DNA of 64,000 nt from Gammaproteobacteria bacterium (GTDB lineage Bacteria; Pseudomonadota; Gammaproteobacteria; S012-40). Made by a program: the position numbers and the translations under genes. The DNA lies in the NCBI GenBank assembly GCA_029881255.1, contig JAOUMY010000001.1, forward strand, positions 558,001 to 622,000, read 5' to 3'. Positions 11,096 through 14,693 of this stretch are shown here, piece by piece. Below the pieces are notes generated by a model. The model did no database searches and was not told where the DNA came from. It worked only from the letters and a program-made list of their open reading frames with translations. Position 1 is the first letter of the stretch, and every line of letters starts with the position of its first letter.

Positions 11096-11740
11096 ATGGA
11101 TAGCCCTGTCTCGGCCTTGCTGCGGCGGGCGCATTTCACCATCGCGGTAAACGCCATCAAGCAATTACCGACGGATACAGGTATCGAAATCGGATTTGCC
11201 GGTCGCTCCAACGCCGGCAAATCCAGCGCGATCAATACCATCACCGGCATCAAGTCGCTAGCGCGGACCAGTAAAACACCGGGACGCACCCAGCAGATTA
11301 TTTATTTTGATCTCGATGAGGAACGGCGACTGGTGGATCTGCCGGGCTATGGCTTCGCCAAGGTACCGGAAAAAATCAAAAAACACTGGCAAGGGCTGAT
11401 GGAGGGCTATTTTCAGCGCCGCAAGTCTTTGCACGGCGTGGTGTTAGTCATGGATGTCCGACATCCCCTCAAACCTTTTGATATTCAGATGCTGGAGTGG
11501 TGTAAGGACACCAACACGCCGGTGCAGATTCTACTGACCAAGGCCGACAAGCTCAGCCGGGGCGCGGCAGACAAACAACTCCATGCCACGAAAAAGGCGC
11601 TCAAACAGCAAGGCCTGCTGCTGGGCGAATTGCAATTGTTTTCATCGCTTAGCGGCACCGGCAAAGAACAGGTTATAGAAAAGCTGGAAGAGTGGTTGGC
11701 GCCCACCCCGGCCGTCGATGTAGGGACCGACGACGAATAA
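11096..11740 (+). CDS. engB: Ribosome biogenesis GTPase EngB (YihA/YsxC)
   Basis: 214 residues. G1 GRSNAGKSS (about 36-44), G2 threonines in TSKTPGRTQ, G3 DLPGYG and G4 TKAD are all present and typical of the EngB subfamily of Era-like GTPases, which assist late 50S subunit assembly. It lies immediately downstream of the cNMP-binding protein and is convergent with polA, the same polA-engB junction seen in E. coli and Pseudomonas. Confidence 0.96.
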   Translation: MDSPVSALLRRAHFTIAVNAIKQLPTDTGIEIGFAGRSNAGKSSAINTITGIKSLARTSKTPGRTQQIIYFDLDEERRLVDLPGYGFAKVPEKIKKHWQGLMEGYFQRRKSLHGVVLVMDVRHPLKPFDIQMLEWCKDTNTPVQILLTKADKLSRGAADKQLHATKKALKQQGLLLGELQLFSSLSGTGKEQVIEKLEEWLAPTPAVDVGTDDE

Positions 11741-11755
11741 TTGAATACCCATAAT

Positions 11756-11875
11756 AAGAAACCCCGGCGTAGATTCTACGCCGGGGCTGGGTTCACTCGA
11801 CTCTGGGATATCGAGTTTGTTTAGACCCGCCAAGGGAGGAGTAGCGGGTAAGTAGTGTTGCGCCTACTCGATATC
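11756..11875 (-). ncRNA. Candidate sRNA in the Spot 42/ErsA position (polA-engB gap)
   Basis: A 120-nt minus-strand segment downstream of polA, same direction as polA, convergent with engB. Its 5' GATATCGAGT (11875-11866) can pair with ACTCGATATC (11816-11807). Inside lies a hairpin ACCCGC/GCGGGT (11849-11844 with 11830-11825) whose 13-nt loop contains CUCCUCCC, an anti-Shine-Dalgarno-like sequence. The 3' end is a strong stem (CCCCGGCGTA/TACGCCGGGG) followed by TTTCTT. A sigma-E-like promoter precedes it. Spot 42 of enterics and ErsA of Pseudomonas occupy this locus and orientation. Sequence homology is not shown; the call rests on position, structure and signals. It could instead be a structured polA 3' UTR. 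Confidence 0.6.
11762..11786 (-). terminator. Intrinsic terminator of candidate sRNA / polA transcript
   Basis: Ten-bp GC-rich stem CCCCGGCGTA/TACGCCGGGG with a five-base loop. The T-rich tail (TTTCTTATT) is on the minus strand only, so it serves leftward transcripts rather than engB. Confidence 0.8.
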
Positions 11876-11876
11876 T

Positions 11877-11906
11877 TGAGACACAGGGTCCTGTCGAAAA
11901 GTTTCC
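11877..11906 (-). promoter_or_regulatory. Sigma-E/AlgU-like promoter for candidate sRNA
   Basis: On the minus strand GGAAACTT (11906-11899), a 17-base spacer and TCTCA (11881-11877) resemble the ECF sigma-E pattern GGAACTT-N16/17-TCTGA. The spacer contains a short palindrome ACAGG-AC-CCTGT (11894-11883), which could be an operator. Predicted start near 11872. The -10 match is imperfect. Confidence 0.4.
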
Positions 11907-11978: not shown

Positions 11979-14693
11979 CTAATGTGCCTCATCCCAGTTA
12001 TTGCCTATCCCTACATCGACTAAAAGCGGGACTTTGAGCTCGGCCGCAGACTGCATCAGCCCGCGAATTTCGGCTACGGAGGGCTCTAACATCTCCTCGC
12101 GGATTTCAAAAACCAGTTCATCGTGGACCTGCATAATCAAACGAACATCGTCCTTTTGCCCTTGTATCCACTGGTCCACAGCGATCATCGCCTTTTTGAT
12201 AATGTCTGCCGCCGTACCCTGCATCGGCGCATTGATTGCGGTTCGCTCGGCATATTGACGACGCTGGTGATTATTGGCGCGGATATCGGGGAGATAGAGG
12301 CGACGACCGAACAGGGTTTCGACATAGCCGCGGTCCCTGGCCTGGGCGCGAATATTGTCCATATAGGCCTGTACTCCCGGGTATTTGTGGAAATACTGAT
12401 CCATATATTCCTGGGCTTCGTTGCGCTCAATACCCAGCTGTTTGGACAAGCCAAAGGCCGACATACCGTAGATCAAACCGAAGTTAATAGCCTTGGCACT
12501 TCTTCGATGTTCACTGGTGACTTCTTCGAGAGGCACGCCCATTACATCTGCCGCTGTGGCTCGGTGTATGTCCTCGCCTTTCTGAAAGGCCGTAAGCAAC
12601 CCAGGATCATCCGATAGATGCGCCATGATGCGCAATTCGATCTGAGAGTAGTCAGCCGCAACGATGCGATAACCCGGTGAGGCGACGAAGGCCTGACGGA
12701 TTCTGCGCCCTTCCTCGGTCCGAACGGGAATGTTCTGTAGATTTGGGTCTGAAGACGAAAGTCGGCCTGTAGCCGCTACAGCCTGATGATAAGAGGTATG
12801 TACGCGCCCACTACGGCTGTCGATCTGCTGCGGCAGCTTGTCCGTATACGTCGACTTGAGCTTACTGAAGCTGCGATGCTTCAGGATCAGGCTTGGTAAT
12901 TCATATTCGTCGGCGAGCTCCTGCAAAACATCCTCTGCGGTTGATGGCTGCCCTTTCGGCGTTTTACGAACCACCGGTAGACCCATATCCTCAAACAATA
13001 TTTTTTGTAACTGCTTGGGAGAGCCTAGATTGAATTCACCGCCGGCCAGTTTGTAAGCCTCTTGTTCGATACCAGCGATACTGACTTCCAGCTCTCCGCT
13101 TTGCGCCTGGAGTTTGTTAGCATCTACCAACACGCCGGTGCGCTCCATTCTTGCCAGCACCGGTTCGAGGGGAATCTCGATATCGGTATACACAGGGCTG
13201 AGTCCAGGCTCCGCCTGTAATTTAGGCCAAAGTGCGCCATGCAGGCGCAATGTGATATCCGCGTCCTCAGCGGCATAAGGCCCGGCCTCAGCGATATCAA
13301 TCTCATTAAAGGTCTTTTGCTTCGCACCTTTCCCCGCAATGTCTTCGAAGTGGATAGTCTTGTGGCCGAGGTATTTCAGTGCCAGAGAATCCATATCATG
13401 GCGAGTTGCCACACTGTCCAGGACATAGGATTCAAGCATGGTGTCATGGGCAATTCCACGGAGATGGATATCGTAATTCGCCAATACGTTCATATCGTAT
13501 TTGAGGTTCTGACCGAGCTTGGCCCTGGCGGGATTCTCCAGCAATGGTTTTAAAGCATTCAACACGCTTTCTCTGTTTAGTTGCGTAGGCGCGCCTTCAT
13601 AGTCATGAGCCACAGGCACGTACGCGGCGTGAAATGCCTCTGTCGCAAACGAAACACCAACGATTTCGGCCTGCATATAGTCGAGGCTGGTGGTTTCCGT
13701 ATCGAAGGCGAATAGTTCTGCCTGTTCTAAACGTTTCAGCCAGGTGTCAAAGCTTGCCTGGTCGGTGACGATCTCATACTGGCTATCTTGCGCGATGGGT
13801 TTCGCGGTCTTGGGCTGAACATTTACCGTAGGTTTTTCTTCACCGAGTAGTTCACGCAGCCAGGTTTTGAATTCCAGTTCCTTGACCAACTCGACCAGAG
13901 CCTCCTGATCAGGCCCGTTGTATTGAAGATCGTTGATGCCGAAAGGCAACTCCACATCACATTTAATCGTCGCAAGCTGGTAGGAGAGAGGCAGTTGCTC
14001 CAGGGTTGCACGCAGATTTTCACCGACCTTACCTGAGATCTTGTCGGCGTTGTCCATGACACCCTGGAGAGAATCGAATTCACTCAACCATTTCACCGCA
14101 GTCTTCGGACCGCATTTCGGCACACCGGGAATGTTATCCACGGTATCGCCGATCAACGCGAGATAATCGATGATTCGGTTTGGTGGAATACCAAACTTTT
14201 CGACAACACCGTTGGTGTCCAAACGGCTATCGTTCATGGTGTTAATCAAGGTGACATGCTCATTGACCAGCTGCGCCATATCCTTGTCACCCGTAGATAT
14301 GATGGTGTTCAGTTGATGCTCAGTCGCTTGCTGCGCAAGCGTGCCGATGACATCGTCAGCCTCTACACCTTCGATACACAATAGCGGCAATCCCATGGCC
14401 TTTATGACCTTATGAAGCGGCTCGATTTGTGCTTTTAGTTCTTCAGGCATAGGTGGTCGATTAGCCTTGTATTCGGGATACATATCGTTACGAAATGTTT
14501 TGCCCTTGGCGTCGAATACAATAGCGACATCTTCCGGATCGTAGTCGCTAATCAAACGCCTTATCATGTTAGCCACGCCATAGATTGCACCCGTGGGTTG
14601 TCCCTTGGAATTTGTAAACGATGGCATCGCGTGGAAGGCGCGAAATAAATAGGAAGATCCATCAACAAGTATTACCGGTTTTGAATTTGTCAT
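11979..14693 (-). CDS. polA: DNA polymerase I
   Basis: 904 residues, full length. The N-terminal 5'-3' exonuclease (about 1-290) shows LVDGSSYLFRAFHA and GDKDMAQLV. The proofreading 3'-5' exonuclease (about 320-510) keeps its acidic residues in FAFDTETTSLD and YAAEDADITLRLH. The polymerase (about 520-904) has motif A (DYSQIELRIMAHLS), the O-helix block RRSAKAINFGLIYGMS, and motif C (QVHDELVFE). It fills Okazaki gaps and repairs DNA. It is transcribed toward engB, with the candidate sRNA between. Confidence 0.98.
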   Translation of the reverse strand: MTNSKPVILVDGSSYLFRAFHAMPSFTNSKGQPTGAIYGVANMIRRLISDYDPEDVAIVFDAKGKTFRNDMYPEYKANRPPMPEELKAQIEPLHKVIKAMGLPLLCIEGVEADDVIGTLAQQATEHQLNTIISTGDKDMAQLVNEHVTLINTMNDSRLDTNGVVEKFGIPPNRIIDYLALIGDTVDNIPGVPKCGPKTAVKWLSEFDSLQGVMDNADKISGKVGENLRATLEQLPLSYQLATIKCDVELPFGINDLQYNGPDQEALVELVKELEFKTWLRELLGEEKPTVNVQPKTAKPIAQDSQYEIVTDQASFDTWLKRLEQAELFAFDTETTSLDYMQAEIVGVSFATEAFHAAYVPVAHDYEGAPTQLNRESVLNALKPLLENPARAKLGQNLKYDMNVLANYDIHLRGIAHDTMLESYVLDSVATRHDMDSLALKYLGHKTIHFEDIAGKGAKQKTFNEIDIAEAGPYAAEDADITLRLHGALWPKLQAEPGLSPVYTDIEIPLEPVLARMERTGVLVDANKLQAQSGELEVSIAGIEQEAYKLAGGEFNLGSPKQLQKILFEDMGLPVVRKTPKGQPSTAEDVLQELADEYELPSLILKHRSFSKLKSTYTDKLPQQIDSRSGRVHTSYHQAVAATGRLSSSDPNLQNIPVRTEEGRRIRQAFVASPGYRIVAADYSQIELRIMAHLSDDPGLLTAFQKGEDIHRATAADVMGVPLEEVTSEHRRSAKAINFGLIYGMSAFGLSKQLGIERNEAQEYMDQYFHKYPGVQAYMDNIRAQARDRGYVETLFGRRLYLPDIRANNHQRRQYAERTAINAPMQGTAADIIKKAMIAVDQWIQGQKDDVRLIMQVHDELVFEIREEMLEPSVAEIRGLMQSAAELKVPLLVDVGIGNNWDEAH

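Follow-up and report, generated by a model that had tools for sequence, protein, structure and literature searches.

Small RNAs (sRNAs) encoded downstream of polA, or carrying C-rich hairpin loops, have been described in several separate bacterial groups. sX13 represses translation through C-rich loops that act on G-rich motifs near start codons in an Hfq-independent manner; it was reported as confined to Xanthomonadaceae, and the same paper raised the question of similarly acting sRNAs at polA in other bacteria (PMC3771888). Anti-hemB is a 105-nt transcript, established by RACE and Northern blotting and reported to be Hfq-bound (PMC5688073). ErsA, located between polA and engB, is strictly sigma-22 dependent in P. 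aeruginosa (PMC7565897, PMC8575079). In the open-access literature, sRNAs downstream of polA are covered by the sX13 paper and by papers that each deal with one family, Spot 42 or ErsA; no paper joining sX13, ErsA, Spot 42 and anti-hemB was found there, and earlier recognition elsewhere is possible. The new element of the present study is the merging of anti-hemB and sX13, each formerly described as confined to one bacterial group.

The locus analyzed here lies in a 64,000-nt stretch of a gammaproteobacterial genome (the window), in which a 238-nt gap separates the open reading frames (ORFs) of the convergent genes polA and engB. An earlier note, made from the sequence alone, had proposed an sRNA in this gap in the slot and orientation of Spot 42 and ErsA, a placement supported by the polA/engB arrangement. 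We consider it likely that the window RNA is a trans-acting sRNA with its own ECF promoter, that it is a diverged representative of an old polA–engB family including anti-hemB and sX13, and that its C-rich loops block ribosome-binding sites under envelope stress. The features on which this reading is built are listed in Table 1.

Table 1. Features of the candidate sRNA and its flanking genes in the window
Feature	Position	Strand	Basis
engB (yihA), convergent downstream neighbor	11096..11740	plus	ORF; conserved
Predicted sRNA transcript, about 118–122 nt	11754..11875	minus	promoter to terminator; fold
Intrinsic terminator with U-rich tail	11754..11788	minus	sequence, fold, helix in relatives
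Hairpin H3 (ACTCGATATCCCAGAGTCGAGT), loop with CCC	11795..11816	minus	pair probability about 0.98
Hairpin H2, anti-Shine-Dalgarno loop	11825..11849	minus	fold; compensatory change in relatives
9-nt apical loop CUCCUCCCU of H2	11833..11841	minus	unpaired probability 0.99–1.0
5' hairpin H1 (GAGTAGGCGCAACACTACTT)	11850..11869	minus	pair probabilities 0.87–0.99
-10-like element TCTCA	11877..11881	minus	17 nt from -35
-35-like element GAAACTT, sigma-E/AlgU type	11899..11905	minus	sequence; motif in relatives
polA, upstream same-strand neighbor	11979..14693	minus	ORF; conserved

The window region folds better than 200 of 200 shuffled sequences (z = -4.9), and the ensemble of the 122-nt predicted transcript consists of four hairpins in the order H1–H2–H3–terminator (-51.1 kcal/mol). 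H1 is near-identical in loci L034, L037, L039 and L060. The terminator with a T-tail described in the earlier note is evident in the sequence as a perfect GC helix followed by the tail UUUCUUAUU on the minus strand, while the plus strand has no T-run at this position. The hairpin presenting CUCCUCCCU at its apex was likewise recovered as H2, with a loop of 9 nt when the inner pairs (U-G and A-U) are counted, rather than the 13 nt first given. The proposed closing pair between the 5' and 3' segments, GATATCGAGT and ACTCGATATC, fared differently: the two are complementary in sequence, but their pairing probability is about 0.02 in the 122-nt fold. H3, a conserved and covarying hairpin absent from the earlier note, uses the 3' arm of this pair as its own 5' arm, and the 5' arm of the pair overlaps H1, a hairpin conserved in the family. 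The closing helix of 10 bp was accordingly rejected, at -44.5 kcal/mol against -49.0 kcal/mol for the four hairpins. A small coding ORF was also discarded, as inspection by eye found no ATG in the predicted transcript until its very end.

To place the window RNA among its relatives, polA–engB gaps were collected from other genomes of the window's order, together with the polA loci of public genomes. Two MAFFT alignments (A1 and A2) placed the loop wrongly and gave way to a third (A3). In nearly all gaps of the order, a GAACTTT-like sequence is accompanied by two hairpins, one with CCUCCC and the other with CCC in its loop, and by a terminator. Direct DNA similarity of the gap was near chance, apart from short stretches of H2/H3 matched in two members of the family and one irrelevant plasmid match. 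A covariance model covering H2, H3 and the terminator (R1) was built from eight seeds including the window sequence; its match to the window itself (11753–11848, 92.4 bits) is thus that of a seed. Across 575 kb, R1 located the element downstream of polA at many loci, in some cases in tandem, and almost nowhere else.

At E <= 0.001, R1 matched 91 of 274 Gammaproteobacteria genomes, nearly always once per genome. The RNA, which the earlier note took to be lineage-specific, is therefore found in a third of the sampled Gammaproteobacteria. This spread answers the question raised in the sX13 paper, since at least a third of these genomes carry a related RNA, in most cases in the polA slot and under a sigma-E-type promoter. 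The matches represent 96 distinct loci, of which 70 adjoin polA and/or engB and 66 have the orientation seen in the window. Both neighbors are arranged as in the window, polA preceding the RNA on its strand and engB converging on it from downstream, at 34 of the 96 loci; the same arrangement involves engB only at 19 and polA only at 11. Two loci overlap the end of engB, four show other arrangements, and 26 have neither gene.

Among these 26, several have a gene of cytochrome c4-like or nuclease-like type as neighbor, and the promoter is retained in most. At L132, L141, L148, L151, L160, L169, L170, L171, L175–L177, L184, L202 and L210, the sRNA has a sigma-E-type promoter but neither polA nor engB nearby, the copy at L171 lying between rimO-like and hslV-like genes. 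Such promoter-bearing copies are relocated or extra copies. The matches at L219 and L222–L226 are probable false positives because they have neither the promoter nor polA or engB nearby. Multiple copies also occur: two each in L062, L063, L066, L142, L150, L163, L185 and L206, three in L051, four in L194, and five in tandem after polA in one metagenome-assembled genome (L058:5837–7214), where four carry a GAACTT-N16-TCTTA promoter.

The distribution bears on the possibility that the RNA acts on its convergent neighbor, by overlapping engB read-through mRNA in antisense or by transcriptional interference, rather than in trans. Convergence with engB, often at 10–50 nt from its end, would fit such a role. 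Copies with no engB nearby nevertheless retain both loop and promoter, the conserved part is the apical loop rather than sequence complementary to engB, and sX13 acts in trans (PMC3771888). We regard a role confined to engB as highly improbable.

The structure was assessed on 94 matches at polA/engB loci, using an alignment fitted to the model, which favors the structure, though the margin is large: 93.0% of cells were paired compared with 71.9% after shuffling, and double-change cells numbered 457 compared with 118 +/- 14 in shuffled and at most 93 in slid versions. Compensatory changes in the stems, whose lack across relatives would have spoken against the proposed sRNA according to the earlier note, were found at 22 of 23 pairs and in all three helices. 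They affect all seven modelled pairs of H2, and all seven pairs of H3 covary; the terminator helix has 91% paired cells. RNAalifold predicts the same helices from the same alignment. Loop content is conserved as well. The anti-Shine-Dalgarno motif noted earlier is present in H2 and persists among relatives, with CCUCC in 73 of 94 H2 loops compared with 23% of shuffled loops, and CCC occurs in 84 of 94 H3 loops. The terminator loop contains CCC or CUCC in 77 of 94 matches, the window being an exception.

The sigma-E-like promoter that had been placed directly upstream of the RNA is indeed present on the minus strand as GAAACTT-N17-TCTCA, with transcription expected to start at about 11870–11875. 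Upstream regions of 110 nt, unused in model building, were scanned for GAACTT-N15-18-TC[TA][TAG]A, with a maximum score of 11. A score of at least 10 was obtained for 67% of 127 copies, compared with 1.7% of dinucleotide shuffles; the spacing is 16 in 87 of 106, and the motif mostly lies 50–60 nt before H2. A sigma-E-type promoter is thus conserved about 55 nt upstream in most copies. The window's own version (AAACTT-N17-TCTCA at -56) scores 9 of 11, a value reached by 20% of shuffles, and is weak evidence when taken alone; its credibility derives from its fixed position in relatives, most of which have GAACTT or GAAACTT at the same distance. The window's genome encodes one RpoE/AlgU-type sigma factor (331.7 bits, above the curated cut-off).

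Because the window promoter is at the weaker end of the range and no terminator is present in the sequence between polA and the promoter, read-through or 3'-UTR processing is possible. Taken further, the element, lying directly downstream of polA, could be no more than the structured terminator or 3'-UTR in which polA ends, perhaps released as an RNA by processing, with neither a promoter nor a trans function of its own. A mere terminator, however, needs neither a conserved loop nor covariation in H2 and H3, and the promoter is conserved at a fixed distance. Moreover, the promoter is intact at many copies that have only engB as a neighbor or lie elsewhere, and in the L058 tandem array most copies have their own. 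These observations make a polA 3' end an unlikely explanation.

No Rfam family matched the window at its gathering threshold. Under relaxed thresholds, the best match was anti-hemB (RF02837), which scored 37.9 bits on the minus strand over H2 and the terminator and for which this locus was the sole match in the 4.97-Mb genome (E = 5.3e-7). By the Rfam rule, the window RNA is not a member of RF02837, because its score falls below the gathering threshold of 49.5, although the E-value speaks for homology. Anti-hemB, also described as Burkholderia RNA 7 and as ncS04 of B. cenocepacia, shares the H2 hairpin with its CUCCUCCCU-type loop and the type of terminator, and its model also finds the same polA/engB loci in other genomes, some above threshold. 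Adjacency to hemB is not shared: in the window's genome, hemB is on another contig, and no R1 locus lies beside it. The Burkholderia-type anti-hemB locus (L229), 1.45 kb from hemB, has neither H3 nor the GAACTT promoter.

sX13 (RF02232) resembles the window RNA in its position directly downstream of polA and in two of its C-rich loops. It has three stems with such loops, whereas the terminator loop of the window RNA is not C-rich, and its loops read CCCC or CCCCC, compared with CUCCUCCC in the window RNA. At E 0.001 the sX13 model found nothing in the genome of the window; across the 274 genomes it identified two loci above threshold, both after polA, and gave sub-threshold scores at five R1-family loci. 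Unlike the window RNA, the true sX13 loci (L320 and L321) have no sigma-E-type GAACTT promoter. Since this promoter is absent from L320, L321 and L229, these lineages seem to have rewired the regulation of the RNA.

A second model (R2) was built from the 94 matches, excluding the above-threshold sX13 loci and the Burkholderia-type locus. It nonetheless scored 39.6 and 34.2 bits on the two sX13 loci and 42.0 bits on the Burkholderia-type anti-hemB locus. When R2 was run on 373 kb of other loci, almost everything that it matched at E <= 0.05 lay just after polA; these E-values are rough because calibration was short. The region after polA was also inspected in 40 genomes lacking an R1 match. Anti-hemB was recognized in nine of them (one just above threshold, the others below), a sub-threshold sX13 match in one (where R1 reached 39.7 bits with filters off) and ErsA in one (121 bits); some had nothing recognizable there. 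The polA-slot family is conserved in structure, loop, position and promoter, and it cross-matches the anti-hemB and sX13 models. Judging by these sequence models, we take sX13 and anti-hemB to be homologous to the window RNA and probably of one family with it. This would join two separately named families and would supply a model for annotating RNAs that Rfam thresholds miss.

The closest known relatives are thus anti-hemB and sX13 rather than Spot 42 and ErsA, the kin named in the earlier note. Rfam covariance searches for Spot_42 (RF00021) and for ErsA (Pseudomon-1, RF01719) gave no match in the window, and the Spot_42 model matched none of the 274 genomes; it did locate Spot 42 downstream of polA in E. 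coli, Aliivibrio and Neiella, in the same slot and orientation as the window RNA. ErsA likewise shares slot and orientation, and has a promoter of the same type (GAACTT-N17-TCATA). R2 gave a marginal 26.6 bits on ErsA and 18.9 bits on E. coli spf, placed exactly on that gene. The latter score is tantalizing, but R2 had no match at the Spot 42 loci of Aliivibrio and Neiella, and Spot 42 homology was set aside as a candidate. Given that the model matches are marginal or unconvincing, the link to ErsA and Spot 42 is one of position, plus promoter for ErsA. Common descent with ErsA is possible on these scores, and kinship with Spot 42 is not convincingly indicated.

The shared slot and orientation, the promoter type common with ErsA and the R2 scores could also be taken to mean that the window RNA is a true Spot 42 or ErsA orthologue, acting mainly through a U-rich single-stranded region and Hfq. 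Besides the missing Rfam matches and the Spot 42 loci not matched by R2, such an orthologue is hard to reconcile with the window RNA itself: ErsA targets are reported to be bound through a U-rich unstructured domain, whereas the window RNA has no long U-rich single-stranded region. Spot 42 is under CRP-cAMP control and has an annotated coding sequence, spfP, in spf, for neither of which a counterpart was seen. We therefore view orthology to either RNA as improbable. A broader scenario, which we advance tentatively and think somewhat doubtful, would derive anti-hemB, sX13, ErsA and Spot 42 from one ancestor in the polA–engB slot, with sigma-E control and C-rich loops ancestral, and ErsA and Spot 42 remodelled with new control and targeting.

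Anti-Shine-Dalgarno hairpin loops are also found in alpha-r14/SmelA075, alpha-proteobacterial RNAs with CCUCCUCCC loops (PMC3927594). These have several identical loops and other synteny, with no sign of common descent with the window RNA; the weak ar14 match in the window (22.7 bits) is far below its threshold of 58.8.

In the window RNA, a promoter resembling that of ErsA occurs together with loops like those of sX13 and anti-hemB. For it we infer transcription, sigma-E dependence, target pairing and repression, as follows. An ECF (sigma-E/AlgU)-type promoter and a terminator, both belonging to the RNA itself, would delimit a stand-alone sRNA of about 120 nt that is read in the same direction as polA and that sigma-E induces under envelope stress. 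The C-rich apical loops of this sRNA, chiefly CUCCUCCCU in H2, would pair with G-rich ribosome-binding regions and so block translation; by analogy with sX13, masking of ribosome sites is the most likely mode of action. Such a mechanism would tie anti-Shine-Dalgarno RNAs to the envelope-stress response. The perfect 9-mer complement of the loop, AGGGAGGAG, occurs at 12 sites in the window's genome compared with 17 for the reversed control, and a possible start codon follows only two of the 12. The exact complement thus points to no clear target, as it is not enriched and seldom precedes a possible start codon.

Further variation was observed in and around the polA slot. Four RNAs located after polA (L281, L282, L284 and L294) have the same promoter and C-rich hairpins and match no Rfam family; they are outlying members of the polA slot. 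In L185 (2003–2272 and 3790–4148), two tandem anti-hemB copies, both above threshold, are separated from the tmRNA gene by about 1.5 kb. In L286 (126–213 and 662–746), an above-threshold anti-hemB match after polA is accompanied by a c-di-GMP-I riboswitch about 450 nt away. Finally, one unit (L035:2116–2230) contains two successive hairpins with CUCCCUCCCUU loops, which resembles a duplication of the anti-Shine-Dalgarno hairpin.
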